This document shows positions 4,682-29,642 of a stretch of DNA of 64,000 nt, piece after piece; the stretch's first letter is position 1; each line of letters opens with the position of its first letter. Source of the stretch: Erythrobacter sp. Its GTDB lineage: Bacteria > Pseudomonadota > Alphaproteobacteria > Sphingomonadales > Sphingomonadaceae. The stretch is taken from the NCBI GenBank assembly GCA_025698865.1, contig JAILWQ010000004.1:186001-250000 (forward strand), in the 5' to 3' direction. The translations under genes were made by a program, and so were the position numbers. The notes below the pieces were generated by a model. That model was not told the origin of the DNA and searched no databases. It saw nothing but the letters and a program-made list of their open reading frames with translations.

Positions 4682-6066
4682 TCCGCCGCATGGGCACTTT
4701 CGCCGGCATGATGGCGGGCGGCGTCATGCTCTCGGCCTGCGCCGGGGGGCCGGAGCCCGAGCCGGAGCTCGTGGCAGTGGTCGCCCCGCCGCCGGTCTAC
4801 GCGACCGACCTGCCGCCCTCAGGACTGGATCAGGAATGGTGGGCCGGGTTCGAGGATCCGGAACTCGACGCGCTCGTCGAGCGCGGACTTGCCGTCAATC
4901 TCGACATCGATGCGGCCGCGGACCGTCTGGAAAGCGCGGCCGCGCTGCTGGCGGCCGAACGCTCCGACCGCCTGCCGTCCCTCGATGCGACGGGGGATGT
5001 CGGCCTCGATCTCGGCAGCGACAACCGCGTTCGCGCCGCAGCCGGGCTGTTCGGCCTGTTCGATCCCGACATCAACGGCAGGCTCGCGGCCGAGATCCGC
5101 GCGGCGGCGGCCGATTATGCCGAGGCGGACTATATCCTCGCAGACCAGCGCCGGCTGGTCGCCGCGGCCATCGCCAGCCAGTATATCGAATATCGCCGCA
5201 CCGGCGCGCAGCTCGATCTGCTCGATCAGTCGACCGATCTCCAGCAACAGACGCTGCGCATCGTCACGCTTCGTTTCGAGGCGGGGCTCGCCGCCAATCT
5301 CGATGTCCGGCGCGCCGCGACCGATCTGGCGCAGACCCGCGCGCGGCGGGGGCTGATCGCGATCTCGCGCTCCAATGCGGCGAACGCGCTCGCCGTGCTG
5401 CTCGCCGAGCCGCCCGGAACCTTCGCCCCCTCGAGCCCGCCGGGCGAGAACAACATTCCGGACTATGTGCGCGGCCCCGAGGCGGGCGTGCCGGCCGATC
5501 TGCTGCGTCGCCGGACCGACATCCTCGCCGCCGAAGCCCGGCTCGCGCAGGCGGCGGCGGCGATCGGGATCGAACAGGCCGATCTTCGCCCGTCCCTGAC
5601 CATTCCGGGAAGCGTGGGGATCGGCGACGGGCTGCTGGGTGGGCTGTTTCGCCAGTTCCTGGTCGGGGTCGGTGCCGCTCTCGACCTGCCGATCCTCGAC
5701 GGCGGGCGCCGCCGGGCCGAGATCGACGCCGCGCGGGCGGAAGGACGGGCGCGTCTCGCCGAATATCGCGCGACCTTCCTCGATGCGCTGGGTGAGGTGG
5801 AAAATGCGCTGGTCGCGATCGACGCCTATCAGCAGCGCAACGAGGATTTGCGCGAGGCGATCGAACAGAGCGAGACGGCGCTCGAGCAGTCGAACGCGCT
5901 CTACCGCGAAGGCCTCGCCTCGCTGTTCGACGTGCTCGACGCCCAGCGCCAGCTGATCGCCAGCCGCCAGTCGCTGATCGACAGCGAGGCCGCCCTCGCC
6001 GATTCCCACGTCGCCTTCAACGCCGCGATCGGCGCCCCGGGATACGAGGCGGGGCGGGCGCTCTAG
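4678..6066 (+). CDS. RND efflux outer membrane lipoprotein, NodT family
   Basis: LSACAGG lipobox, TolC-like repeats, 4-bp overlap with permease. Confidence 0.9.
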   Translation: MIRRMGTFAGMMAGGVMLSACAGGPEPEPELVAVVAPPPVYATDLPPSGLDQEWWAGFEDPELDALVERGLAVNLDIDAAADRLESAAALLAAERSDRLPSLDATGDVGLDLGSDNRVRAAAGLFGLFDPDINGRLAAEIRAAAADYAEADYILADQRRLVAAAIASQYIEYRRTGAQLDLLDQSTDLQQQTLRIVTLRFEAGLAANLDVRRAATDLAQTRARRGLIAISRSNAANALAVLLAEPPGTFAPSSPPGENNIPDYVRGPEAGVPADLLRRRTDILAAEARLAQAAAAIGIEQADLRPSLTIPGSVGIGDGLLGGLFRQFLVGVGAALDLPILDGGRRRAEIDAARAEGRARLAEYRATFLDALGEVENALVAIDAYQQRNEDLREAIEQSETALEQSNALYREGLASLFDVLDAQRQLIASRQSLIDSEAALADSHVAFNAAIGAPGYEAGRAL

Positions 6067-6073
6067 CGGGGGG

Positions 6074-7678
6074 TCACTCCCACTCGATCGTGCCGGGCGG
6101 CTTGCTGGTGTAGTCGTAGACGACGCGGTTGATGCCCTTCACCTCGTTGACGATGCGGGTGGCGCACTGGGTGAGGAAGCCGGCGTCGAAGGGATAGACG
6201 TCCGCCGTCATGCCGTCGGTGCTGGTCACCGCGCGGAGGGCACAGACGCTGTCATATGTGCGCCCGTCGCCCATCACGCCGACCGTCTTGACCGGGAGCA
6301 GCACGGCGAAGGCCTGCCAGATCGCGTCGTAGAGCCCGGCCTTGCGGATCTCGTCGAGATAGATCGCGTCGGCCTTGCGCAGGATGTCGCAGCGCTCCTT
6401 GGTGACCTCGCCCGGAATGCGGATCGCGAGGCCGGGGCCGGGGAAGGGATGGCGGCCGACGAAGACGTCCGGCAGGCCGAGCTCGCGGCCGAGATCGCGC
6501 ACCTCGTCCTTGAACAGTTCGCGCAAGGGTTCGACCAGTTGCATGTTCATGCGTTCGGGCAGGCCGCCGACATTGTGGTGGCTCTTGATCGTGACGCTCG
6601 GCCCACCGGTGAAGCTGACGCTCTCGATCACGTCGGGATAGAGTGTGCCCTGCGCGAGGAAATCCGCGCCGCCGATCTTTCGGGCTTCTTCCTCGAACAC
6701 GTCGATGAAGGTCTTGCCGATGAACTTGCGTTTCTTTTCAGGGTCGGTTTCGCCCGCAAGGCCCGAGAGGAACTGTTCCTCGACGTCCACATGGACGAGC
6801 GGGATGTTGTAGTGATCGCGGAACAGGGTGACGACCTGCTCGGCCTCGTTCATCCGCATCAGTCCGTGATCGACGAAGACGCAGGTCAGCTGGTCGCCGA
6901 TCGCCTCATGGATCAGCACCGCGGCGACCGCCGAATCGACGCCGCCGGACAGGCCGCAGATGACCTTGCCATCCCCCACCTGCTCGCGGATCTCGGCGAT
7001 CTTGGTCGCGCGGAACTCGGCCATGGTCCAGTCGCCGGCCAGCCCGCAGACATGGCGCGCGAAATTGGCGATCAGCTTCGCCCCGTCCGGCGTGTGGACG
7101 ACTTCGGGGTGGAACTGGATGCCGTAATATCTGCGCGCCTCGTCGGCGATCACGGCGAAGGGCGCGCCGTCGCTGGTGGCGACGATCTCGAACCCGTCGG
7201 CGAAGCGGGTGACCTTGTCGCCATGGCTCATCCAGACCTGGTGGCGCTCGCCCTCCTCCCACAATCCGTCGAACAGGGCGCAGGGCTTGGTGACGGTGAG
7301 GAAGGCGCGGCCGAATTCGCCGCCTTCGCCCGTTTCGTGCCCGGGGCGGACCTCGCCGCCGAGCTGGTGGGTCATTACCTGCTGGCCGTAGCAGATGCCG
7401 AGGATGGGCAGGCCGCTGTCGAACAGGCATTGGGGCGCGCGCGGGCTCCCTTCGTCCGGCACGCTGGCGGGCGATCCAGACAGGACGATGCCCTTGGGCT
7501 TCATCCGGTGGAAGGCTTCCTCGGCCTGCGTGAACGGCGCGATCTCGGAATAGACCCCGGCCTCGCGCACGCGGCGGGCGATGAGCTGGGTCACTTGGCT
7601 GCCGAAATCGACGATCAGTATCGAGTCAGGCAGGATCGAGTCGGGCTGGACGGAATCGGAGAGGGTGTCGGGCTGCAT
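6074..7678 (-). CDS. guaA: Glutamine-hydrolysing GMP synthase
   Basis: GATase GICYGQQ, synthetase [11 protein letters not shown]-term [11 protein letters not shown]; start placed at MQPDTL (ORF extends to 7741). Confidence 0.97.
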
Positions 7679-7857
7679 GGCGAGGCGGTTAGGCAGCGCT
7701 CCGCCGCCTGTCCAGATCGGCAAATCGCGCCAATTGCGCATTTTGCAACATCCGCTGACCTTAACTCACTTTCGTTCGCCGGCGAGCAACATTATTACAC
7801 CCTCAACCCGGCGGTTCACTCCCTCCCATTTCGGCCGTCGGACATCAGGAGAAAGAC

Positions 7858-7938
7858 ATGCGCTTCGCAGTCAACATCCTGGCCTTCCTTGCGGCGAGTG
7901 CAGTCAGCACCTTGATGCTGGTCCCCCACATCGCCTGA
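7858..7938 (+). CDS. Putative 26-aa single-TM small protein
   Basis: ATG preceded by AGGAG; encodes MRFAVNILAFLAASAVSTLMLVPHIA*. Confidence 0.35.
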   Translation: MRFAVNILAFLAASAVSTLMLVPHIA

Positions 7939-8041
7939 CCCACCGCCCGCAAGGCGACATGGCAGCGAGTAGAGACGCGGCCGCCGAATTCCTCTCCCCC
8001 AGAACCCCTTCGGCGGTCCGCGTCTCGAAAACCTCAACCAG

Positions 8042-9607
8042 TCAGGCCGGGTCGATATGCCGTGCCGCCATTTCGCGCAGCTCGCTCTTGAGCAGCTTGC
8101 CGATATGGCTGCGCGGCATTTCGTTTATGGGATGGAGCGCGGCGAGCCGCTGGGTCTTGCCGAGGCGGAAATTGACCGCGGCGAGGATGGTCTCGGCCGC
8201 CGCAGGATCGTCCGAATGATGCGCCAGACGCACGAAACCCACCGGCGTCTCTCCCCAGCGGCGCGAAGGCACGCCGATCACCGCCGCCTCGAGAACCTCG
8301 TCCTCCTCGAGCAGGGCGTTCTCCAGATCGACCGGGTAGATGTTGAACCCGCCCGAAATGATCATGTCCTTGGCCCGCCCGACCAGTTCGACGAAGCCGT
8401 CCGCATCCATGCGGCCGATGTCGCCCATGCGCTGCCACACCTCGCCGGTTTCGGGATCGATCCACTGGCCTTCGCGGGTCTTGTCGGGCTGGTTCCTGTA
8501 GCCGGCCATCATCGTGGCGCTGCGGCCGACGAGATTGCCGGGCGTGCCGGGGGCGACCTCGCGATCCTCGTCGTCGAGAACCTTCAGCTCGCTGCCCGGC
8601 GCGGGACGGCCGACCGTGTGCAGCTTGTCCGGGAATTCATGCGCGGCGAGGATGCAGACCACCCCGCCCTCGGTCATGGAATAGATTTCGACCAGCGCGC
8701 CCGGCATGCGGTCCAGCACCTCGCGCTTCAGTTCGGCGGAGAACGGGGCGGAGGTGCAGTACTTGATCGCCAGCGAGGACAGGTCGAACTCGGCGAAACG
8801 CGGCTCGTCCATCAGCCGCTGATACTGGACCGGGACGAGCATGGTGGTGGTCGCCCGATCGGCCTCGGCGAAGCCGAGCCATTTCACCGTGTCGAACTTG
8901 CCCATGATCCGCACCGAACCGCCCGCCAGCAGGGGCGCGAGAAAGGCGACCATGGTGGTGTTGGAATAGAGCGGGGTCGAGGCGAGCGCGCGCACGGGAA
9001 GGCCCGCCGCCAGATAGCTCGCCGCGGTCGAGCCGAATTGCCGCCAGCGCATCAGGTGCGAATGGACGATGCCCTTGGGCGTGCCGGTCGTCCCGCTCGA
9101 ATAGATGATGTTGAACGGGTCGGCGGAGTCGGGCTTGAAGTCGGGCGCGCGGGTTCCGACGGGCGCCATCCAGCCGTCCAGCGCCTCGTCCAGCACGATG
9201 CGCTCCATGCCGGGAAAGCTGTCTTCGCCCAGCTCTTCCAGCTTGGCGCGGTCCACGAAAATATGCCGCGCGCCGCTGTCCGCCGCCATTCCGGCGAGCT
9301 GCTCCGCGCTGGCGCTGGTGGTGAGCGGCGCGGCCACCCCGCCCGCGCGCACGGCGGCGAGGAATACCAAGGCATAGGCGATGGACGATGTGCCGAGTAT
9401 CGCGACCGATTGCCCGCGCTCGAGCCCGTCCGCCGCCAGCCGCGCCGCGATCCGCTCGATCCGGTCGACCATGTCGGACCAGCTCAGCGCGCCGCTCTCG
9501 TCGCGCAGGGCGACCGCTTCGGGCTGCACCTTGGCCCAGCAGGCGAAGATCGCGTGATAGGATCCGAAGGGTTGCGAGAGGTCGGCTGCGTCGGGGGCGT
9601 TTTCCAT
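8042..9607 (-). CDS. AMP-dependent synthetase/ligase (acyl-CoA ligase family)
   Basis: YSSGTTGTPKG motif and C-terminal ANL domain. Confidence 0.92.
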   Translation of the reverse strand: MENAPDAADLSQPFGSYHAIFACWAKVQPEAVALRDESGALSWSDMVDRIERIAARLAADGLERGQSVAILGTSSIAYALVFLAAVRAGGVAAPLTTSASAEQLAGMAADSGARHIFVDRAKLEELGEDSFPGMERIVLDEALDGWMAPVGTRAPDFKPDSADPFNIIYSSGTTGTPKGIVHSHLMRWRQFGSTAASYLAAGLPVRALASTPLYSNTTMVAFLAPLLAGGSVRIMGKFDTVKWLGFAEADRATTTMLVPVQYQRLMDEPRFAEFDLSSLAIKYCTSAPFSAELKREVLDRMPGALVEIYSMTEGGVVCILAAHEFPDKLHTVGRPAPGSELKVLDDEDREVAPGTPGNLVGRSATMMAGYRNQPDKTREGQWIDPETGEVWQRMGDIGRMDADGFVELVGRAKDMIISGGFNIYPVDLENALLEEDEVLEAAVIGVPSRRWGETPVGFVRLAHHSDDPAAAETILAAVNFRLGKTQRLAALHPINEMPRSHIGKLLKSELREMAARHIDPA

Positions 9608-9656
9608 CGCCCCACCCTATCGCCAAGCCGCGCGCTGTCGAGCCCCGCCGATCGCT

Positions 9657-10381
9657 CTAGCCTCCGCCGAGGCTCCCGAGAACGAAGGCGAGGATCACGC
9701 CAAGCGCGGTGGCGATCCCGGCCATGTAGTGATCTTCCTTGAAGGCCTTGGGAAAGACCTCGGTCGCCAGGCTCGCCACCACGGCTCCGGCGGCAAAGCA
9801 GCGGATGACGGCAAGCGTCCCCTCCCCCACACCGGAAAGCAGCAGATTGCCCGCGATCGCCGCCACCGAAAGAAGGATGGCGGTCGCGGTCCACAGCAGC
9901 ATGATCCGCCCCTTCGACTTACCGCCGCCCTGGCCGCCGCCCTGGCTCCCGCCCTGCCCCATGTCGCGCGCACCGCCTGCCGCTTCGGGCAGGTTGGAGA
10001 GCAGGATCGACCCGGCGAGCGCGGCCACTTCCAGCCCGCCCGCACCGATCAGGGCGACGCCGAGCGCGAGGTTTTCCGGTATCCCGTCGAGCGTGATCGC
10101 GGCCAGCAGCCCGCCGCCCGAATCCGAGCCCCATTTGCGCTTGATCAGCCAGTCGCTCGCCGTGAACACCGCCGCCCCGGCCGCGACGCCGAGCATGGCG
10201 TGAAAGATGCTGCTCATGTCGATCGACGGCTCGATCAACTCGCTCGTCACCGACAACAGCAGCGCGCCGCCCGCCAGCGCGACCAGAAATCCCTCGAGCC
10301 TTTCGGGCAGCTTGCCGTAGATGCCCCATGCGGCCCCGGCGACCAGCGCGCCCGAGACCACCAGCACCACGGAAAACAGCA

Positions 10382-17696: not shown

Positions 17697-17819
17697 ACTA
17701 CGCTGATGTTGTAAAAACAACGACTTAGCGCAAAACACTTACGCCAGAATTGCCTCCAATTCGCCCCTTTTTCCGCTTGCGTGATTACCCGGTGATTGCC
17801 AGAAAAGGCCACGAGGTAT
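17659..17819 (+). repeat. 13-bp direct repeat GGCCACGAGGTAT: trmB 3' end (17659-17671) and just upstream of the integrase (17807-17819)
   Basis: Exact match read directly; both copies preceded by CCAGA. Confidence 0.6.
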
Positions 17820-17822
17820 CGC

Positions 17823-18730
17823 ATGGCAACAGGAAAAATCAGCAAGCGCACGGTCGATTCGCTCCCGGTTGGACCAAAGGAAAACTATCTTTGGGACACC
17901 GATCTCAAGGGCTTTGGCGTCAAGATTACAACTGCTGGATCAATCAGTTACATAATCCAGTTCCGAATGGGCGGACGAGAAGCGAAGACCCGTCGTTTCA
18001 CGATCGGATCACATGGATCGCCTTGGACACCGACTACTGCACGCTTGGAAGCTGAGCGATTGTTGGTGATTGTTGCGCAGGGCATTGATCCGGTTGATGC
18101 GGAAAAGCAGCGCCGCCGGGAAGCTGTCGACCTCGCCTTCTCGAATTACGCTGACCTCTTCACTCGCTCCTGCAAACGCGAGGGATGGCGTCGCCTCGTG
18201 GAGCGATCCATTCGCCTCTACCTCAAGCCCACATTCGGAATGAAGGCGCTGCCAGCGATTACGAAGATCGACGTCGTTTCGGTTCTCGATCAGATGCCGC
18301 CCAAGCAGGTGGCAAACCGGCGAAATGTCTTTGCCGTTATGCGCCGCCTGTTTCGCTGGGCCGTCAGTCGCGGAGATATCGATCGCAATCCGATGGAGGG
18401 CATGGAAACGCCGCCTCCGGTCAAGCCACGAGAGCGCTGGCTCAAGGATGGCGAACTCCGCCATATCTGGAATGCGGCGCCGGAATGTCATCGCTGCTTT
18501 GGTCCAATTGTCAGGCTTCTGATCGTAACCGGACAGCGCCGTGAAGAAGTCTCCGGGATGCACTGGCAGGAGCTCAGTCGCAGCGAAAGATTATGGACCC
18601 TGCCCGGATCTCGAACCAAGAACGGAGAACCTAACTCCATTCCCCTCAACGATCTTGCAATCGCCGAGCTCGACCGGGAGGCTCGCGGCGAGAGGTGGCC
18701 GCGTAAGGGCCGTGTTTTCGCGACAGCTAT
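17823..18730 (+). pseudogene. Tyrosine integrase (DUF4102/P4-type), 3' truncated, in frame with downstream kinase
   Basis: MATGKISKRTVDSLPVGPKENYLWDTDLKGFGVKI...; first catalytic Arg region VTGQRREEVSGMHW present; no HxxR/Tyr box. Confidence 0.8.
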
Positions 18731-18777
18731 CTTATCGGTCCGATTCTGTTCATCCCGGGAAGGTCACAAGCTGGCTA

Positions 18778-19856
18778 TGAATGCAAAAGTCATCACGAAC
18801 TTCCAGCTTGGCAGCCGCGAATCCTCTTCGGCGCCTGATGTCTTGCCCCTCGCTACAGAGCATGCGCTGCAATCCGCCGGAGCTGCTTTCCATGCGCTCG
18901 CCGACACCATGCCGCAGATGGTATGGTCGACTCTTCCCGACGGCTCCCACGATTATTACAATGCGCGCTGGTATGAATTCACGGGTGTCCCTGTCGGATC
19001 AACCGACGGCGAAGGATGGGCCGGGATGTTCCATGAGGATGACCAGGCCGACACATGGAAGAAATGGAACCACAGCCTCGCTACCGGCGAACCGTACGAG
19101 GTTGAATATCGCCTGAGGCATCACAGCGGCGATTATCGCTGGATGATCGGTCGTGCGCTGCCGATCCTCAACGAGGAGGGTGAGATCCAGCGCTGGATCG
19201 GCACTTGTACGGATATCGACGAGCAGAAGCGCACCGCCCTCCAAAACGAAATCCTGAGTCAAGAGCTCAGCCATCGCATCAAGAACATCTTCGCGATTGT
19301 TTCCGGTTTGATCAGCCTGACAGCGCGCGCAAATGAAGCGTTCGGTGAAGCGTCGCGCGACCTGCTGGGCCGGATTTCCGCGCTGGGGCGCGCGCACGAA
19401 TTCGTCCGGCCCCACAGCGAAAAGTCCCAGCCCGAGGGCAAGGAAGTGACCCTCGCCACGCTGCTTGCGACGATCTTCGAGACCTATCCTGCCTTTTCCG
19501 AAAGAAGGATTGCTATTTCCGGCCCCGATATCGCGGTCGAAAGCCGCGCCGCCACGCCGGTTGCATTGGTGTTCCACGAGCTGGCTACCAACGCGATGAA
19601 GTACGGAGCTCTGTCCAATCCCGAGGGAAGGATTTCGCTGGACCTTTCAACCGAGGACGAGATGGTCCGCTTCCGCTGGAGGGAACACGGAGCTCACATC
19701 GACAAGGCGAGTGAGCCTCAAACGGGTTTCGGAAGTCGCCTCATCGAGTTGGCCGTGAAGCAACAGCTAGGAGGCAATTACGAGAGAACCTGGCATGACG
19801 ATGGCGTTGAACTCGTCATGGATGTCCGAAAAAGCAGGTTGCAGGAGCCTAGTTAA
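18778..19856 (+). CDS. PAS domain HWE-family sensor histidine kinase (continuous frame from integrase, 17796-19856)
   Basis: PAS ALADTMPQMVWSTLPDG...YNARWYEFTG; HWE-type ELSHRIKNIFAIVSGLI; ATG at 18778. Confidence 0.85.
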
Positions 19857-20392: not shown

Positions 20393-20815
20393 CTATCGGG
20401 CGCCAGGACCACGACCAAAGAGCGTATCTATGATGGGGCATTCCGGAACATCACCGCCTTCGCAGCGGGCTGATACATCGGCTAGCGTGCGCTCCAACCT
20501 AGTCAAATCAGCAATTTTAGCTCGCACGCTGGCCAGATGGTTATTGGTCAGATCCCGAACCTCGCCGCAGCTGTAGGGGTGCGAATCAACGAGGCTGAGC
20601 AGGCTTTTGAGCTCCTCGATCGAAAAACCCAGATCGCGGCCGCGCAAGATAAAGCCGAGCCGCGCCTGGTCGCCGGGTGGATAGAGCCTGTGCCCGCTTG
20701 CCGTACGCTCGGGAGGCTGAAGCAGACCGATGTTCTCGTAGTAGCGGATTGTCTCAAGGTTGCAGCCCGACCGTCTGGCCAGTTCTCCCCGTTTGATCAC
20801 TTGCGATGCTGTCAT
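20393..20815 (-). CDS. merR: MerR-family (Hg-type) transcriptional regulator
   Basis: LARRSGCNLETIRYYENIGLLQPP; C-terminal Cys residues; divergent from merT. Confidence 0.82.
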   Translation of the reverse strand: MTASQVIKRGELARRSGCNLETIRYYENIGLLQPPERTASGHRLYPPGDQARLGFILRGRDLGFSIEELKSLLSLVDSHPYSCGEVRDLTNNHLASVRAKIADLTRLERTLADVSARCEGGDVPECPIIDTLFGRGPGAR

Positions 20816-20836
20816 GAGCCATATGCCAATTAGTGC

Positions 20837-20867
20837 TTGAACCTGTAGTTACTACAGGGAGTACATT
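20837..20867 (+). promoter_or_regulatory. MerR-type promoter/operator: TTGAAC - 19 bp - TACATT with palindrome CCTGTAGTTACTACAGG
   Basis: Read directly; palindrome at 20842-20858 inside a 19-bp spacer. Confidence 0.75.
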
Positions 20868-20874
20868 GGTTTCC

Positions 20875-21237
20875 ATGGTCGATCAAATGCACAAGAACGC
20901 GCAGCGCTTATGGGCGAGCGGCGGGACGCTCGGCGCGATACTCGCCTCGTCCTGCTGTATTGCCCCGCTGTTATTGCTGAGCCTTGGCATCAGCGGCGCG
21001 TGGATCGGCAATCTCACTGCGCTCGAACCGTACAAATGGGTATTTATCGCCATTGCGGTTGTCTTTTTGGCCCTTGGATTCCGGCACGTCTATTTTCGGC
21101 AAGCCGAACCTTGCGAAGACGGAACATATTGCGCGCGGCCCGGAGCAAACCTGCTCGTCAAAAGCTCCCTGTGGCTGGCGACCGTATTGGTCGCTGCCTC
21201 GTCCACGGTCGAGTGGTGGGCGCCGCAATTCTACTAG
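20875..21237 (+). CDS. merT: Mercuric ion transporter MerT
   Basis: ASSCCIAPLLLLSLGISGAWIGNLTALEPYKWVFIAIA. Confidence 0.9.
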   Translation: MVDQMHKNAQRLWASGGTLGAILASSCCIAPLLLLSLGISGAWIGNLTALEPYKWVFIAIAVVFLALGFRHVYFRQAEPCEDGTYCARPGANLLVKSSLWLATVLVAASSTVEWWAPQFY

Positions 21238-21248
21238 GAGTTCGAAAG

Positions 21249-21590
21249 ATGAAGAAGACGATGATCGTCGCAGTTGCGATACTGGGACTGGCCGGAGCGG
21301 GTATCTGGGCAGCGACCTTGTTTCCGCCAAACTCCGACGAACGGGTTCAACAAAATTCTGCGCATCTGCAATCGGCAAGTTTTGCGGTCGAGAATATGAC
21401 CTGCGCGACCTGCCCGATAACGGTTCGGCGCGCGATGGAAGGCGTGGCAGGCGTGCACGAGGTGACTATCGATTACGAGACCAGGACGGCGACTGCGCAG
21501 TTCGATCCTGAGCGAACAACCACAAGCGCGATCGCCGCGGCGTCGACCGAGGCCGGATATCCGGCGATCCTTTCAGAGAGCGCGCTATGA
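21249..21590 (+). CDS. merP: MerP-like mercury-binding protein with N-terminal TM segment
   Basis: HMA motif VENMTCATCPITVRRAMEGVAGV. Confidence 0.85.
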   Translation: MKKTMIVAVAILGLAGAGIWAATLFPPNSDERVQQNSAHLQSASFAVENMTCATCPITVRRAMEGVAGVHEVTIDYETRTATAQFDPERTTTSAIAAASTEAGYPAILSESAL

Positions 21591-21817
21591 TCGAACTGAA
21601 GTCCGAGATCACATGCCCTACTTGCGGGTACAAAAAGCTCGAAAGAATGCCGACGGATGCCTGCTGGTTTTTCTACGATTGCAATGGTTGCGGTGTGAAA
21701 CTCCGCCCCAATGCGGGCGATTGCTGTGTCTTCTGCTCATTCGGCACCATCCCCTGCCCGCCGATCCAGGAAACGCGTGCCGATCGCAAGGGCGCCACAT
21801 GTTGCGGAGGGCGGTGA
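21587..21817 (+). CDS. GDCCVxC domain-containing protein
   Basis: MIELKSEITCPTCGYKKLERMPTDACWFFYDCNGCGVKLRPNAGDCCVFCSFGTIPCPP. Confidence 0.85.
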   Translation: MIELKSEITCPTCGYKKLERMPTDACWFFYDCNGCGVKLRPNAGDCCVFCSFGTIPCPPIQETRADRKGATCCGGR

Positions 21818-21818
21818 G

Positions 21819-22490
21819 ATGAGTACGCGAAACTTCGATCTTATAGTGCTGGGTGTTGGTATGGCGGCCGTAAATGCCGCCAACAAATGCGCCTCAGCCG
21901 GTTGGTCGGTCGCGGTGGTCGACGAACTGCCTTATGGCGGCACCTGCGCCCTGCGCGGCTGCGATCCGAAGAAAATGCTCCGCCGCGGGGCGGAAATCAT
22001 CGACGCAGCGCGGCTCATGCACGGCAAGGGCATCGAACCGAACGACATCGCCATCAACTGGCCCGATCTGGTCGCCTTCACGCAGACGTTCACCGACAAA
22101 ATGCCCGGTCGGATCGAAAACGGTCTGGAGAGCAACGGCGTCACTACCCTTCACGGGAAAGCGCGCTTCGTCGGCGAAGATACCGTCGAAATCGACGGCG
22201 AGGGGCAGTTTCAGGCAAACCATTTCCTGATCGCAACGGGTGCCAAGCCGCGGACGATAGATGTTCCCGGCTCCGAACACCTTACCGACAGCACCGAGTT
22301 CATGCGGCTCGATGCGCTGCCCGAACGCATCCTGTTCATCGGCGGCGGCTTCATCTCGTTCGAGTTTGGCCATATCGCAGCACGCGCCGGCAGCGAGGTG
22401 TGCATGATCGATCGCGGCGAGAGACCGCTTAAAGGTTTCGATGCCGATCTTGTTGAAAGACTCGTCGCGCGAGGCGAGGAAGTCGGCGTC
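21819..22490 (+). pseudogene. Truncated FAD/NAD(P)-dependent disulfide reductase (MerA/glutathione-reductase-like)
   Basis: FDLIVLGVGMAAVNAA, PYGGTCALRGCDPKK, FIGGGFISFEFGHIAARAGSEV; similarity stops near 22490, no C-terminal dimerisation domain. Confidence 0.75.
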
Positions 22491-22498
22491 CATCCACC

Positions 22499-23167
22499 AA
22501 ACGCAAGAGCGCGCTCGACATCGCACTTTACAAACGCGTCCTGTGCGACGCGCTGGAAAAGGCCGGCATTTCGGAGAAAGGGAGCTGGTCCGGTAAAGTC
22601 GAAACGAGCCTGTTAGCCAAGCACGCGACCGAGGTTGCGAAATTCCTTCTGATAGCTTCGGCGCACGACGTAGAACCCGACCTCAAGAATCCGGGTTTGG
22701 TCGTATCCGGCCGGAAAGGTGTTCATCCAACCCTGACGCTGGATGCCTGGAACCTGCTTTCGCCCATGCAGGTCGAGCACATCGCTCCACAGCAAGGGGC
22801 GAGCACTGACTGGCCCGCTGACCTCTACGATGAACGAGAGCTGTTCCAGACTCTGGGCAACCTCACGCTGCTGCATCGCGACCACAACATCGTGGTGTCA
22901 AATCATCCCCAACCGAAAAAGATGGCAAGCTACCGCGCCTTGGCATCGAGAACGCCCGAAGCGTTCGAGGCCGCGCGCGAAGAAGCCAGAAAGTTGGGGT
23001 ATGACTTGCCCGAAAGATCGGAAGCGATCCTCGCCGAAGCAACCCACGCGAGATTGTTGATTCCGCTCGTCGAATGTCCGTCCGACTGGGACGGGGAATT
23101 TGTGCGTCAACGCTCGCGAAGGTTGGCGGAAATTGCATGGGATCGCTTACGGCCATGGTTGGACTGA
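22499..23167 (+). pseudogene. C-terminal fragment of DUF262/DUF1524 (HNH, GmrSD-like) protein
   Basis: In-frame KRKSALDIALYKRVLCDALEKAG... VEHIAPQ ... TLGNLTLLHRDHNIVVSNHP, the DUF1524 HNH signature; no start or N-terminal DUF262. Confidence 0.7.
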
Positions 23168-23223
23168 CGGCCGTGTCGCGCAGTTGCAAACCAATGCCTT
23201 GGCGTCACGAGAGGACTTAAAGC

Positions 23224-24195
23224 TTGTTCCGTATTACCGCCCGAACTGTTCTCGAACTTGGCTCTGAACTAATCAGTTCGGATATTATCGCGTTTTATGA
23301 GCTTATCAAGAACGGTTTCGACGCTAGAACAAAAGCAGGGGTCGACGTAAAGTTCGACATTGTTCTGACACGCCGAGCATTTCTACGCCTCAAGGGTACA
23401 ATCCACGGTAAAGCCAGCCTCCCGGACCTGAAAAAGCTCATAAAAGACGAACTTCTTCCAACTGCTTCAGAGGCAGCGTACGGGAGCTTCGTCGATTTGA
23501 TCGATGAAGCGACTACAAAACAAGAGCTTACCGAAAAGCTCGATCAAGCTCAGCGACGCTTCAACACAATCACCGTGACAGACACGGGAAGCGGAATGTC
23601 GCTAGAGGATTTGGATCGAAGCTTCCTCGTGATCGGAACGCCATCAAGGAAAAAAGAGGTCGAAGCAGCGCTTGCGCGTGGAGACAAGAGCACCCCGTAT
23701 CTCGGCGAAAAAGGTATCGGGCGCCTTTCGGCAATGCGTCTTGGCGAGCGGTTGCTGGTTGAGACGGCCCGTTCAACCGACAAGAAACTCAATCGTCTCG
23801 AAATCGATTGGACCGAGTTCAGCAATGTCGATGCAATGCTCGATCAAATTGCGGTGGCCCCGACGAAAGGAGGAAAAAAACCCAGTGCCGAGTGGTCCGG
23901 CACAGCTTTGACGATCAGCGACCTTGTCGAGAATTGGACCGAAGCGAGGGTCCGCGACATGGCGGACTATGAATTTGCCCGCCTGACCGACCCTTTCGCC
24001 AATGCGACGACGCGACCTCGGATCGCCATCTTCTGGAACGGAGAAAGGATCGGCATTCCCATAATGTCCGGTGCCCTGCTTGATGCTGCCCATGCACGCG
24101 TGTCAGGCGCATATGAACTTATCGATGGCGCACCTGTTCTGACCTGCACTTTCGAGGCGTTGGATCTCGGGTTCGAGCATCCGAAAACGCACTGA
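23224..24195 (+). CDS. GHKL ATPase N-terminal half (Hsp90/MORC-like ATP-binding protein)
   Basis: N-box ELIKNGFDA, DTGSGMS, GEKGIGRLSA; TTG start; ends abruptly. Confidence 0.7.
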   Translation: MFRITARTVLELGSELISSDIIAFYELIKNGFDARTKAGVDVKFDIVLTRRAFLRLKGTIHGKASLPDLKKLIKDELLPTASEAAYGSFVDLIDEATTKQELTEKLDQAQRRFNTITVTDTGSGMSLEDLDRSFLVIGTPSRKKEVEAALARGDKSTPYLGEKGIGRLSAMRLGERLLVETARSTDKKLNRLEIDWTEFSNVDAMLDQIAVAPTKGGKKPSAEWSGTALTISDLVENWTEARVRDMADYEFARLTDPFANATTRPRIAIFWNGERIGIPIMSGALLDAAHARVSGAYELIDGAPVLTCTFEALDLGFEHPKTH

Positions 24196-24209
24196 AGGCT
24201 CTTGCCCAT

Positions 24210-24818
24210 ATGAAGGGTCGCGATGTCCCAGACCGCCTGCGCAGCTACTTCAATACGTTGCAGGCGGAAATGAAGAGTGTCAGCAAGCGCGTGCGCGTTC
24301 TCGACCCGATGAGCGTCTCTGGTCGACAACGATCGGAAGTCTTTGCACTCGACGAAGTCATTCGGGACGCCATTGAAGCCCATCATGCCCAATTCAAGCG
24401 TCACAAGATCGACGTGATCACCGACCTGACTACGCGACCTCTGCGGATCAGGGCAGTCAAGGGAATGATCGTTCAAATCATTGAAAATTTGATTTCGAAT
24501 TCAGTCTATTGGCTCGATATGCGCGCGGAGCGAGAACCTTCCTTCAAGCCGAAAATTTCAATCTCGCTTGAAAGTGACCCACCCGTAATGATGTTCGAAG
24601 ACAATGGGCGAGGCATTGCTCCGGAAAATCGAGACCAGGTTTTCAAGATGTTCTTTTCGCTCAAGGATACGCGCAGGAGGCGCGGACTTGGCCTTTACAT
24701 CGCCCGCGAGGCGGCCATGCATAACGGCGGCACACTTGAATTGGACGAGGAGCGCGATCCGGAGACCGGCAGACTCCACAAATTCGTTCTCGAATTGCCA
24801 GCAGGAGCGCAGGTGTGA
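24210..24818 (+). CDS. Histidine-kinase-type HATPase_c domain protein (probable 3' part of the preceding gene)
   Basis: IIENLISNSVYW, FEDNGRGIAPENRDQVFKMFFSLK, GLGLYIAREAAMHNGG; open frame extends upstream of the ATG. Confidence 0.7.
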   Translation: MKGRDVPDRLRSYFNTLQAEMKSVSKRVRVLDPMSVSGRQRSEVFALDEVIRDAIEAHHAQFKRHKIDVITDLTTRPLRIRAVKGMIVQIIENLISNSVYWLDMRAEREPSFKPKISISLESDPPVMMFEDNGRGIAPENRDQVFKMFFSLKDTRRRRGLGLYIAREAAMHNGGTLELDEERDPETGRLHKFVLELPAGAQV

Positions 24819-25837
24819 CGCTTGGAGACCTTCTGGCGCAAAAGAGAATAACAACCGCTCTCGTGGTGGATGACGTCTGCGACGCCGTGCCGACAGCGAC
24901 GGATATTGGACCCGAGAACGAGGCTTGGGCGATCTTCAATGACGACCTTACCGCCGAACAACGCCAGCTTATCGAAGCTGTATATGAGGATGCGAAAGAC
25001 AGAAGTTTCGATGAGCTGGTGTCCGATGATGCCTATGTGGCAGCCGTATGGGGCTTGCGCGATACCCTTACGGAAGTCGCCGCTCCTTTGTTCGAGCAGT
25101 ATCTTGCCGATCAGGCATCTGACCAAACTTATGTCGATGTGGTGGTCCAGAAGCTTCAAGAGCTCGGCCTCGAGTGTCGGACATCCGGGCGCGACTTCAT
25201 CGAAGCTGCGCAGGAGGTCGATCTCATTGTTATCGACCTGTTCTTCAACAAAGCGCAGGACGAGGCGGCCCTTCACGCATCCAAAAGGATGCTGCGCGAC
25301 GCCATAGAGAAGCGTCGAGCCACGCCGCCCCTGGTTATCCTTATGTCACGCAGTCCTCGGCTCGAAGACAAGCGAGAAGAGTTTCGAGACGAAGTGGGCC
25401 TCTTGGACTCGGGTTTCAGGATCATAAGGAAATCGGAGCTAGAAGAGGCAGGCAAACTCGATCGCCAGCTTGAGCGCCTTGCCCACAATGCGGATGACTC
25501 CCGCATGCTCGCGCGATTCTTTGAATCCCTCGAACAGGGAATGGCTGACGCCACTTCGCGAACGCTCAAACTTTTGCGAAATCTCCGCCTCTCGGACATC
25601 GGTCAGATCCAGCAACTGCTACTCAACGCCGAGGGCGAACCGGCGGGAAGCTATCTGGTCGATGTCTTCGATCGTGTTCTGCAACACGAGATCGAACGTG
25701 AGCGGCAAATCATCGATGCGGCAATTCCCTTAGCGGCCTGTTGCCCACTGAACCCGAAAGCGAACCTTCACCGGACTAATGGGGAGACATTCATTGTTTC
25801 CAATGACGCTCAACGAATGGCGCGAACGGCTCGATGA
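24815..25837 (+). CDS. Divergent receiver-like protein paired with GHKL ATPase
   Basis: TTALVVDDVCDA ... VDLIVIDLFFNKAQD ... PPLVILMSRS ... FRIIRKSEL; 4-bp overlap with upstream gene. Confidence 0.6.
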   Translation: MTLGDLLAQKRITTALVVDDVCDAVPTATDIGPENEAWAIFNDDLTAEQRQLIEAVYEDAKDRSFDELVSDDAYVAAVWGLRDTLTEVAAPLFEQYLADQASDQTYVDVVVQKLQELGLECRTSGRDFIEAAQEVDLIVIDLFFNKAQDEAALHASKRMLRDAIEKRRATPPLVILMSRSPRLEDKREEFRDEVGLLDSGFRIIRKSELEEAGKLDRQLERLAHNADDSRMLARFFESLEQGMADATSRTLKLLRNLRLSDIGQIQQLLLNAEGEPAGSYLVDVFDRVLQHEIERERQIIDAAIPLAACCPLNPKANLHRTNGETFIVSNDAQRMARTAR

Positions 25838-25925
25838 CAACGGGCGCGCGCTCGGCATCGAGCCGTTCACCACTCTGCCGCAGGTCGATCCTGGCGCGCA
25901 AATCCTGCTCTCGGTGCGAAGCTGG
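25779..25925 (+). pseudogene. Possible 5' fragment of a third gene (MTLNEWRERLDDNGRALGIEPFTTLPQVDPGAQILLSVRSW...)
   Basis: GC3-rich codons, overlaps the receiver-like gene end, frame interrupted by ssb sequence. Confidence 0.35.
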
Positions 25926-26309
25926 CCAAAGGTTCGCCAGGTCTTTGCGCTGATCGATGCGATCGAGGACGTTGGCATCCATCCCTGCGATGTAGCTCTC
26001 CGAGCCATACCGCGTCACACCGTCCTGGTCTTCCCACTGCGTGTAGTGGATACGGCCCTGGACCGAGACCAGCTGGCCTTTCGAGCAATACTGACCGACG
26101 GTCTTGGCGAGGCCGTTGAAGCAGGTCACACGGTGGAATTCGCTGTCCTTGGCGGTGTAGCCGTTCTCGTCCTTGTAGGTCTTGCCGTCCTTGTCGCGTG
26201 CAGGACGATCGGTGACGACAGTGATCCCGGTAACGCTGGTTCCGCCCTTGGTTTCGCGGGTGTCCGGATCGCGGGCGATACGGCCGGTGAGGATTGCGAT
26301 ATTGGTCAT
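25791..26309 (-). CDS. ssb: Single-stranded DNA-binding protein, native C-terminus replaced
   Basis: MTNIAILTGRIARDPDTRETKGGTSVTGITVVTDRP...; after about residue 125 it reads antisense of the + strand fragment; no acidic C-terminal tail. Confidence 0.75.
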   Translation of the reverse strand: MTNIAILTGRIARDPDTRETKGGTSVTGITVVTDRPARDKDGKTYKDENGYTAKDSEFHRVTCFNGLAKTVGQYCSKGQLVSVQGRIHYTQWEDQDGVTRYGSESYIAGMDANVLDRIDQRKDLANLWPASHREQDLRARIDLRQSGERLDAERAPVVIEPFAPFVERHWKQ

Positions 26310-26578
26310 GAGATAAGTTCCTTCAGTTCCTCAAACCGGAGACCATCTCCGGCTTGCGAACATCCAGAAGAAGCAGGGCATGGGAGGACTGCACCGCAGG
26401 CCTGAAGGGCCGAAGGGAAACCTGTTCATGACGGGGGGTGCGGGCAGGCGGCGAAGCCGCCAACACGGCCGGAAAGGAACGGGTTGCGGCTCCTCAGCTG
26501 ACCTGGTTCAGGACTGTTCGCGAAGAAAGCCGGATGGGTATCGGGTGCGGGTCTGAAGGTGCCAAGACCCTGCTGCAA

Positions 26579-26848
26579 TCAGCTTACCTCATTGCCTTCC
26601 GATACCGCCAGGAGATCCATGAAGTTGCGGGCTGCTTCCCGGTCTTCCTCGTTCTCGAAGGCCACGTCGAGGTCGGGGGCAGACCCGAGCAGGTAGAGCA
26701 TGGCCCACAGGGCAAAGCGTTTTCCCCGGTCCTGCTCCAGACCGAGATCGACCTGGCATCGCTCGATCCCCGAGGCCAAGGTTTCTGCGCCAACCGCTCC
26801 AGGATCGGCAGTGCCAAAATAGCGCATGAGAAGCGTATCGAGGTCCAT
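26579..26848 (-). CDS. Hypothetical protein (accessory element backbone)
   Basis: Intact 89-aa ORF MDLDTLLMRYFGTADPG...; position next to ssb. Confidence 0.55.
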   Translation of the reverse strand: MDLDTLLMRYFGTADPGAVGAETLASGIERCQVDLGLEQDRGKRFALWAMLYLLGSAPDLDVAFENEEDREAARNFMDLLAVSEGNEVS

Positions 26849-26919
26849 CGCACTCTTTTCGGATCATCGGTCGGGCCGCGGCGAGGAAGGCCAGCATTCG
26901 TGGCCCGGTCAAGCGTCGC

Positions 26920-27273
26920 TCAATCAGCGGTGGGTTGCTCGCGAAGCCGCCGGGCGCGCTCGACGAAGTGCTCCATCTGGGTGGCGGCATGCAGGGTAAG
27001 CGGATGCGGCTTCGCATCGGCACGAGGGGATATGAATTCCGCGATTTCTTCGATTGCTGCAAGCTGATCGGCGCTGGCCTTCGACAGAAGGCCGAGCACC
27101 ATGTTCTCAAGGGCGATCACCCTGATGCGCAATTGGATGATCTCGGCATCGGAAAGTGGCGGAATATCCCATTTCTCGCAGTCGGCAGCGAGCGCTTCCT
27201 GCGGCCCGCAGGGCAATGCCCCGCCTTCGTCTTCCCAGCGCGACAGCGCCCCGGCTTTTCCCGTTTCCGACAT
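26920..27273 (-). CDS. Hypothetical protein (accessory element backbone)
   Basis: 117-aa ORF MSETGKAGALSRWEDEGGALPCGPQEA... Confidence 0.55.
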   Translation of the reverse strand: MSETGKAGALSRWEDEGGALPCGPQEALAADCEKWDIPPLSDAEIIQLRIRVIALENMVLGLLSKASADQLAAIEEIAEFISPRADAKPHPLTLHAATQMEHFVERARRLREQPTAD

Positions 27274-27377
27274 ATGCGGTTCCTTTCATAACCAACGAGG
27301 CGATCGTCTGCACGCTGCTCACATAACACAAAGCCCTACCGGGATGCGCTTGGCACGGCGACAGCGAAGCCGGGCAA

Positions 27378-27476
27378 ACGGAACCCCGCGCGTCGGGTTG
27401 GTCTTCACGCGTGGTTCCTGAACGACCCCTTGGGGGCACCTGCGACCCGCAGGGCGTCGGGGGGAGGCGGGGCCGT
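27378..27476. repeat. Structured intergenic repeat, copy A
   Basis: ACGGAACCCCGCGC...GGTTCCTGAACGACCCC...CCTGCGACCCGCAGG...GGGGCC; homologous to 43464-43558. Confidence 0.7.
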
Positions 27477-27559
27477 CCTTTCCTGATCTTGCGTTGTTCG
27501 TTGCGATTTCTTGCCGAGGATATCTCCTGAATTGCCGGGTCACCGGGAAACGCGTCCGA

Positions 27560-27967
27560 TCACATACCTTCCATGTCGTGATCGGCCATCGAGGACATGT
27601 CATGGCCCGTATGGGGATCGGCGGGCGGAGTCGCCTCGCTCGCGGGTTGCGGGCGCGTTGCTGGCGCGGCGGGTGTGGCAGTTGCGCGTGAAGCGGGCGA
27701 GGCGGCGCGCCGTGAGGCGGGCGTGGCGGCATCATCTGCCGAAGTAGCGTCCTGCCGCGCAGTCGCTGCCTCACCTTCGGAGGGAGAGGCTGCCGGGTCT
27801 GCAAGACCCGCTTCAGGTGCCGTACCAGCCACCACCGCAGCTTCGCCCATAGTCGAAACCTCGGTGATCGGTGTGCTCTCCTGCGCCTCGTCGCAGGCAG
27901 CAAGAGCGGACATCAAGGGCGAGATCGCGAGAAACCCGATCGCTACATTCAATCTGGAAGTACGCAT
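27560..27967 (-). CDS. Ala/Thr-rich lipoprotein with His/Met-rich C-terminus
   Basis: LSALAAC lipobox; ends DPHTGHDMSSMADHDMEGM. Confidence 0.6.
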   Translation of the reverse strand: MRTSRLNVAIGFLAISPLMSALAACDEAQESTPITEVSTMGEAAVVAGTAPEAGLADPAASPSEGEAATARQDATSADDAATPASRRAASPASRATATPAAPATRPQPASEATPPADPHTGHDMSSMADHDMEGM

Positions 27968-27981
27968 GCTCTTCAACTCCT

Positions 27982-28653
27982 TCAGAGCCAGGAAATACCG
28001 AGGTGGTTCGCCCCATGCGCGAGCTCGCCGCCAAGGAAGCCTTGGATGAGAACGAGCGCCGCCATGGAGAAGATCGACGCGCGCAACCAGGCGCGGCTCT
28101 GGCTCGGCCTGCTCGCGAGATAGGCCATCGCAATACCGAGAACCGCGATCAGCATACCGTTCCATCGATGCACCTGCATGACAGTGTCGCCGCCGAACCA
28201 CAGCCCGGTGTGAATCCATCCGAACAGGACTGCGACCACCGCGCCGATGGCCCCGCCGTAGGCAAGCACGCGCACCGCACTTTCCAGGCCCGCTCCTTTC
28301 CGGCGCATCACGAACAATTCGGTGGCCGCAGCCATGAGAAACAAGGCGATCGGGAAATGGATCGTTGCCGGATGCAGCTTCTTCAGTACGGCCATGACGC
28401 CGGCTTCGCCCTCATCCGCATGGCCAACGGCCTCGTCATGACCTCCGCCCGCTTCATCGTGCGCGTCAGAGGATTCGCCAGCATCCGCAGTCTCACCCAT
28501 CTGCGCCATGGCCGCCTGGTCGTGCGCATCGCCATTGGTGGCAGCAGGCGCGGCGCTCGCCTCTTCGCCATGTTTTTCGTCGCCATGAGCATGAACGGGT
28601 CCGACGAAGAGCAGGCTTGCGACGAGCAGCGCCAAGAATGAGGGGGCTTTCAT
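27982..28653 (-). CDS. DUF2231-like membrane protein
   Basis: Signal peptide, His-rich stretch, LKKLHPATIHFPIALFLMAA then 4 TM. Confidence 0.7.
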   Translation of the reverse strand: MKAPSFLALLVASLLFVGPVHAHGDEKHGEEASAAPAATNGDAHDQAAMAQMGETADAGESSDAHDEAGGGHDEAVGHADEGEAGVMAVLKKLHPATIHFPIALFLMAAATELFVMRRKGAGLESAVRVLAYGGAIGAVVAVLFGWIHTGLWFGGDTVMQVHRWNGMLIAVLGIAMAYLASRPSQSRAWLRASIFSMAALVLIQGFLGGELAHGANHLGISWL

Positions 28654-28883
28654 GTCTCGTATGTCTCCCGACCCTGCAGTTAAAGTGCGACCTATGTGCC
28701 TGATACGCACCGCAGCCGCCTGCCCCTCACATTAATTTGATGGTATTGGCGCGACAGATGTGCGTCCGCCGTATCACGTCTGATGGCGGCACCATCGCGA
28801 TTGTCGAACGCAGTCGGCTCCTGGCCCCGTTCGGCCTGGCGCACGGGTTAAGGCGTTCGCCCACGCGCATTAGCCCCATGGGC

Positions 28884-29615
28884 TCAGGCGAGTTTGCTCT
28901 TCTTTGTGCGACGACGCAGCCGCGGCATCCGGTTCGCAAGCAGGACGAAACCCGACAGGGCTATGATCGTGCCGCCAATGCCGAACAGCAGAAGCCACCA
29001 ACTGTTGATGCGATCGCGCTCGGTCCAGTCCATGATGTGCAGGCCCCAGATGAAATCGAACAGGCGCCAAGTATCACTACGCGCCGCCCCGAGGGTACCG
29101 CTGCTGGCATCGATGTAGAGGCGCGTCGAAGCCTCGTCAGCATAGGTGACCTGCCAGGCCGGAAAAGGGCCGCGAAACTCGGTCCCCACCGGTTCGTGAA
29201 CGAGCCGCGCGCCTTCGATCGTCGTGCGCGGTCCGGTCCATGCGCGCAACGCGATGGATCTTGCCGTCGGAGCCGAGATGGGGGAGAGTTTGCGCCCTGT
29301 CACCGGATCGTGAAGGCTCACGCTACCGTCGACCTTTCGGACCTCGGTCACGGCATCGCCGTCGAGCGAACGCGTCGACACCGCCGCAAGAGTACCGTCG
29401 TTTGCGACCCAGGCCGGGAGCGGGGCATCGGCAGGCAGCGCCTCTTGTTCACGCGAAACGACATGTTCGGAGCGAACTTCTTCCAGGTTGAGAAACGACA
29501 TGAGGGCGCCGGTTCCCATCCACAAGAGAACCTGGACACCGACGAAAATCGCCAGCCATTTGTGGATCTTGCTGCCGAGCACATGCAGGCGCAGCTTCAG
29601 CGACGGCGTTGCCAA
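28884..29615 (-). CDS. PepSY domain-containing membrane protein
   Basis: KIHKWLAIFVGVQVLLWMGTGALMSFLNLE...; C-terminal TM. Confidence 0.75.
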   Translation of the reverse strand: MATPSLKLRLHVLGSKIHKWLAIFVGVQVLLWMGTGALMSFLNLEEVRSEHVVSREQEALPADAPLPAWVANDGTLAAVSTRSLDGDAVTEVRKVDGSVSLHDPVTGRKLSPISAPTARSIALRAWTGPRTTIEGARLVHEPVGTEFRGPFPAWQVTYADEASTRLYIDASSGTLGAARSDTWRLFDFIWGLHIMDWTERDRINSWWLLLFGIGGTIIALSGFVLLANRMPRLRRRTKKSKLA

Positions 29616-29642
29616 CCGGTGCTACCTCTTCGAAAGCCGTAA

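Follow-up and report, generated by a model that had tools for sequence, protein, structure and literature searches.

The closest described architecture to the genes examined here is the pair formed by HEF_HK (PF19191) and Response_reg_2 (PF19192) proteins; Bellieny-Rabelo et al. (2021; PMC8011034) found the two linked in 91.6% of regions and reported an association with restriction-modification (R-M) systems. SspABCD-based phosphorothioation defense, in turn, is known in combination with SspE or SspFGH (PMC8092258), although 2,211 of 2,678 sspBCD loci were reported without either. A 2024 reappraisal of the phosphorothioation machinery makes no mention of a histidine kinase, MORC or receiver (PMC10853773), and a 2025 paper on Acinetobacter baumannii global clone 2 mentions a single two-component system next to an Ssp locus that lacks SspE, with no family-level linkage described (PMC12421847). 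Here we analyze a histidine kinase (HK) gene and a response regulator (RR, receiver) gene in a 64,000-nucleotide stretch of Erythrobacter sp. (contig JAILWQ010000004.1, positions 186,001 to 250,000; hereafter the window), together with their intact relatives. Positions 22490-25811 of the window are a decayed remnant of a horizontally acquired Ssp island in which both genes are broken. The sequence data make it probable that the intact pair is a dedicated add-on to SspABCD, acting as a sensor or trigger of Ssp immunity. The architecture of the pair was published in 2021, so the label of a candidate undescribed system in the earlier note on this DNA is not supported; newly found are an Ssp-exclusive clade and a family-level linkage that we did not meet in the literature searched. 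That search, which had subscription papers and preprints outside its scope, returned no paper containing both "SspBCD" and "histidine kinase", and an unseen report is possible.

Scanning contigs for relatives recovered three close loci, from Pelagerythrobacter marinus (L002), Stakelama marina (L003) and Citromicrobium bathyomarinum (L004), with 96-97% identity in the receiver match, as well as three more distant loci. Compared with L002-L004 using blastn, the window retains three stretches (22490-24183, 24178-25732 and 25731-25811), with DNA identity exceeding 99% across the two long ones (Table 1). The first begins with a fragment that the earlier note described as HNH/GmrSD-like; it does match GmrSD_C (PF07510, E 4e-10), but SspE matches far better (PADLOC, E 3e-50), and tblastn gives 99% over 225 aa. 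Its left edge at 22490, where the blastn match to L002-L004 begins, is joined to a truncated mercuric-reductase-like gene.

The following open reading frame, starting at 23224, carries the Hsp90/MORC-type GHKL fold recognized in the earlier note (HATPase_c_3, PF13589, E 4e-12); its kinase part is 99.5% identical in DNA to the intact genes and runs on out of frame to 24195. The second ATPase domain proposed for the adjacent frame (24135-24815) was likewise confirmed as HATPase_c (PF02518, E 5e-14), and its N-, G1- and G2-boxes are intact in the kinase alignment. Between the two, 766 bp are gone, with a 6-bp microhomology (CATCCG) at the junction and a frameshift. This deletion removed the central part of the protein (residues ~321-576) and with it the H-box histidine H569; the two apparent ATPase genes without a DHp are therefore a single kinase gene minus its middle. 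The GTG start of the receiver gene, at 24815, gives a 4-bp overlap (GTGA) with the kinase gene, whose TGA lies at 24816-24818, exactly as had been noted, and the receiver open reading frame contains all the receiver landmarks listed there (VVDD, VIDLFF, LMSRS and RIIRKSEL). It has lost 1,036 bp encoding the C-terminal domain (residues ~307-652), also with a frameshift, and the break at 25732 therefore leaves the final ~30 codons out of frame. Neither deletion length is divisible by three. The last retained stretch comprises the receiver 3′ end and downstream sequence, and island homology stops at 25811. In the Erythrobacter genome itself, only the three window stretches of the 17-kb island are present at high identity; two reference-locus stretches outside the ssp genes find 74-82% matches elsewhere in this genome, and SspD gives a match at background level only (28.7 bits, on a different contig). 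The window copy of the pair is thus dead and cannot serve as a working module.

In S. marina (L003), the intact pair occupies 5644-10001. In the intact kinase (786 aa), the Hsp90/MORC-type GHKL domain at the N-terminus is followed by a middle region, a DHp segment and, finally, HATPase_c. H569 lies within 'VAHELARSSENALK', the DHp "H-E-L" is invariant, and H569-E570, the core His followed by Glu, is invariant in the kinase alignment (A2). Across 12 kinases with 36-84% identity to the L003 protein, the residues of both ATP sites and of the H-box are invariant, and HATPase_c_3 and HATPase_c occur together in one protein in 12/12. Purifying selection on the pair is strong, with nonsynonymous divergence (dN) of 0.13-0.32 and saturated synonymous sites. 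The statement that no DHp H-box was visible therefore holds for the window copy, through its deletion, and fails for the intact kinase; the conclusion that this is not a normal two-component pair is accordingly unsupported, as the receiver also keeps all phosphotransfer residues. The N-terminal GHKL domain and the DNA-modification context recall paraMORC and bacterial MORC ATPases (PMC8011034), from which the kinase differs by its complete histidine-kinase core at the C-terminus. An identity of the N-terminal domain with type II restriction enzymes (HgiDII/BbrUII) was rejected, as the alignment covers no more than the GHKL ATPase part that they share, with scores well under the cut-off.

The intact receiver measures 666 aa, within a family range of 633-801 aa. 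D19, D20, D141, S178 and K206 are invariant in 12 receivers at identities down to ~20%, in agreement with the landmarks proposed from the window alone. A model of a relative's receiver (predicted local distance difference test, pLDDT, 83.5; predicted template modeling score, pTM, 0.74) shows a (β-α)5 domain connected by a helical linker to a beta-rich domain at the end of the chain. The insertion after β1 anticipated in the earlier note is helical in the AlphaFold2 model of the intact homolog. Foldseek matched the receiver part of the relative to CheY, ArcA, Rv1626 and PhyR at probabilities of 0.97-0.99, with whole-chain E-values all above 0.001, and a model of the entire L003 receiver (mean pLDDT 63) had no significant match in the PDB. 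The C-terminal part carries invariant C388-D389, R462, R464, Q472, R481 and G483 (12 sequences). Weak BFVD matches hinted at a PemK/MazF toxin, a candidate that was discarded at an hhalign probability of 0.1-0.2% against a PemK profile of two sequences only. Searching phage records and viral contigs for the receiver returned none.

With the HEF_HK pair, our pair shares a presumably soluble kinase composed of HATPase_c_3, DHp and HATPase_c, an adjacent receiver-like gene with loop extensions, an invariant Asp and co-localized DNA modification genes (PMC8011034). It differs in several respects. The HEF_HK scores available for these kinases, 17.4-18.8 bits, stay below the Pfam cut-off of 24.1; at E<=0.1, HEF_HK was matched by 10 of the 12 members (best 4.9e-5), and L016 had no match at E<=0.01. 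None of the 12 matched Response_reg_2 at E<=0.1, and the lone PF19192 protein (L031) could not be aligned with our receiver alignment (A1). Membership of Response_reg_2 is therefore argued only by profile comparison with the receivers of sister kinases (A4), to which A1 aligned by hhalign with a probability of 98.2 (E 4e-14, 371 columns); most A4 receivers are themselves missed by PF19192. In addition, our receivers are larger, and the available part of PMC8011034 does not describe their C-terminal domain. The modification partner here is SspABCD, and the terms "phosphorothio" and "Dnd" are absent from the text of that paper.

Intact relatives adjoin the genes of SspABCD-SspE and SspABCD-SspFGH defense (PMC8092258), as established by PADLOC or protein similarity; PADLOC called SspC, SspD and SspE in L003, SspH and SspC in L006, and SspF and SspG in L010. 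Neither the kinase nor the receiver is itself a known Ssp component or has an Ssp model in PADLOC. All clade members (20/20) adjoin SspB/C/D genes, so that the defense link suggested from architecture and neighborhood proved much stronger than the earlier note could know, and the two GHKL folds with a modified receiver are indeed kept as a pair. In the plasmid collection, SspD occurs in 69 of 72,556 records, yet each of the 16 records with a full-length kinase (at least 29% identity) carries it within about 15 kb; two weaker plasmid kinases (Hymenobacter and Allorhizobium) adjoin DNA methyltransferases instead. Of 401 Sphingomonadales genomes, 6 have an intact pair, and every one of these belongs to the 18 with SspD (hypergeometric P about 3e-9). 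Chlorohelix presents the gene order sspA-B-C-HK-RR-D-F-G-H on a single strand, as one operon. The pair was found with SspE (L003), with SspFGH (L006, L009-L011, L013, L015, L035 and G859) or with neither nearby (Methylorubrum, Ensifer NER9, Devosia, R. leguminosarum 23B, A. baumannii, G816, G831 and G1105), where "neither" means undetected by similarity to the SspE and SspFGH queries used. In Methylorubrum extorquens ATCC 55366, for example, an sspABCD-HK-RR locus is free of detected SspE and SspFGH. Two A. baumannii loci (L033 and L039), compared here with the published clone 2 Ssp region, carry an HK-RR pair of the clade next to sspD. The two-component system of PMC12421847 may be this pair, but an ordinary two-component pair is also present, at a distance of ~8 kb.

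In a tree of 91 kinases, derived from a quick search and arbitrarily rooted, the Ssp-linked kinases form one clade with a Shimodaira-Hasegawa-like approximate likelihood ratio test (SH-aLRT) support of 100, spanning Alpha-, Beta- and Gammaproteobacteria and Chloroflexota. Its sole extra member, from a viral contig (L045), has SspB-C-D just upstream, whereas SspB or SspC was found in 0/79 other viral-contig relatives outside the clade, one of which has a 24% match resembling a 3′-phosphoadenosine-5′-phosphosulfate (PAPS) reductase. The association was therefore probably gained once and retained despite strong divergence and across phyla. Correlations between distance matrices are 0.93 for HK and RR, 0.79-0.97 among Ssp genes and 0.28-0.45 for HK or RR against Ssp; pair and ssp genes are thus constantly together but loosely correlated, which indicates re-assortment, as with add-on modules. 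Separately, many phage-like contigs (L046-L124) have a receiver-like gene after a kinase of HEF_HK type; this gene escapes detection by Pfam Response_reg_2 but keeps the Asp, Lys, Cys-Asp and Arg-x-Gly motifs.

The conserved residues, receiver fold class, co-inheritance and linkage point to a cytoplasmic phosphorelay serving SspABCD as the best-supported mechanism. MutL, MORC and Hsp90 ATPases provide the general background for ATP-driven dimerization, by which the N-terminal domain of the kinase may sense DNA or the state of the Ssp machinery during infection. HATPase_c would then phosphorylate H569, and the invariant residues suggest that the phosphate would move from there to D141 of the receiver. 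The phosphorylated receiver could switch its C-terminal domain, with its invariant Cys-Asp and Arg-x-Gly motifs and no recognizable DNA-binding domain, and the switched domain might trigger or license the Ssp response, whether by being an effector or by acting on SspBCD, SspE or SspFGH. More tentatively, the pair may rank with SspE and SspFGH as a third, unrecognized partner module of SspABCD, in which a phosphorelay detects infection or the state of modification and sets off an output domain of a new type. This would explain part of the large set of sspBCD loci for which neither SspE nor SspFGH was reported; most reported sspBCD loci are without a known restriction partner, and the pair is a concrete candidate for this gap. 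Should it fill it, two-component signaling would become part of DNA-sulfur immunity. The pair also yields a search profile, as PADLOC has no model for it and Pfam fails to detect the receiver.

Several observations weigh against a dedicated role in Ssp immunity. The pair is missing from most SspABCD loci (12/18 in Sphingomonadales, about 53/69 plasmid records) and is therefore dispensable for Ssp, and the C-terminal domain of the receiver has no Pfam, PHROG or PDB match. Moreover, defense islands gather unrelated systems, and part of the linkage could be an island-level effect, although unrelated neighbors do not recur in 20 of 20 cases.

Among the alternatives, an ordinary two-component controller that regulates the expression or activity of the Ssp operon, tuning modification outside the defense reaction, is conceivable but unlikely. 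The two-component chemistry is conserved, and occurrence with SspE, SspFGH or neither is expected of an SspABCD regulator; however, searches of the receiver revealed no helix-turn-helix or other DNA-binding family, a mild argument against transcriptional regulation, an XRE regulator of its own accompanies the ssp operon in several loci, and distances to Ssp genes correlate weakly. We consider it improbable that the pair is an independent anti-phage system merely sharing islands with Ssp: the complete linkage in one clade across three proteobacterial classes and Chloroflexota, the insertion of the pair between sspC and sspD in Chlorohelix, and the lack of any Ssp-free member in the genomes and plasmid records searched, the dead copy in the window aside, outweigh the moderate distance correlation with Ssp and the occurrence of the wider HEF_HK family beside type II R-M (PMC8011034) and on prophage-like contigs without Ssp. 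A plain HEF_HK/Response_reg_2 two-component system that serves general stress and has no defense meaning would account for the published architecture and co-localization (PMC8011034) and for the homologous receiver profile, but is very unlikely in view of the Ssp-exclusive clade and context, the sub-threshold HEF_HK scores and the undetected Response_reg_2. Finally, although open frames of 323, 202 and 340 aa persist in the window, the notion that they work as a split kinase and short receiver is ruled out by two frameshifting deletions that removed the middle region, the H-box and the receiver C-terminal domain, in a genome with no SspD or further island DNA.

Table 1 Remnants of the Ssp island in the window and additional genes beside intact pairs.
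Feature	Position	Strand	Remarks
C-terminal sspE remnant (GmrSD_C/HNH part)	22490..23167	+	225 codons of 775
5′ part of kinase gene, residues 1-320 of 786, Hsp90/MORC-type GHKL ATPase domain	23224..24183	+	TTG start
Kinase deletion junction, 766 bp lost	24178..24183	+	window aligned with L003 6604-7369
3′ part of kinase gene: remaining DHp region and HATPase_c catalytic domain	24184..24818	+	PF02518
5′ part of receiver gene, residues ~1-306 of 666	24815..25732	+	receiver domain and start of helical linker
Receiver deletion junction (2-bp overlap) and last kept stretch	25731..25811	+	blastn = L003 9953-10033
~810-900 aa protein beside pair	L012 11224-13749	-	
~810-900 aa protein beside pair	L016 3346-5910	-	
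~810-900 aa protein beside pair	L028 3658-6369		
~810-900 aa protein beside pair	L029 3802-6228	-	
STAND/NB-ARC-like ATPase	L003 10098-13088		
STAND/NB-ARC-like ATPase	L006 10144-13071		
STAND/NB-ARC-like ATPase	L007 10155-13115		

Several further genes accompany intact pairs. A protein of ~810-900 aa with a weak HATPase_c_3 match adjoins the pair in four loci without detected SspE or SspFGH and is a candidate third component (Table 1). Directly 3′ of the receiver, three loci encode a STAND/NB-ARC-like ATPase of ~990 aa with TPR repeats, which in L003 has a weak HNH-like N-terminal part. Four Ssp-HK-RR loci without detected SspFGH (L012, L016, L034 and L036) contain a protein of 250-400 aa with no assigned family, adjoining an S-adenosylmethionine (SAM) methyltransferase in L012 and L016. 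In A. baumannii L033, sspBCD-HK-RR is followed by an endonuclease-transposase-transposase-excisionase set (24093-29631), whose Tn7-like appearance suggests a carrier element. In A. baumannii VB31459 (L039, 14001-16330), the kinase matches in pieces with no annotated coding sequence, next to an intact receiver and ssp genes, and may be either another decayed kinase or a mis-sequenced one.

Upstream of the remnant in the window, the N-terminal part of a tyrosine recombinase (Arm-DNA-bind_3, Phage_int_M) forms an in-frame fusion with a PAS/HWE histidine kinase (17796-19856), resembling another deletion scar in the same style as those of the Ssp remnant. It is followed by mer-like genes at 20393-22490 (MerR, MerT, MerP and reductase), the reductase being truncated at 22490, where the sspE remnant is joined to it.
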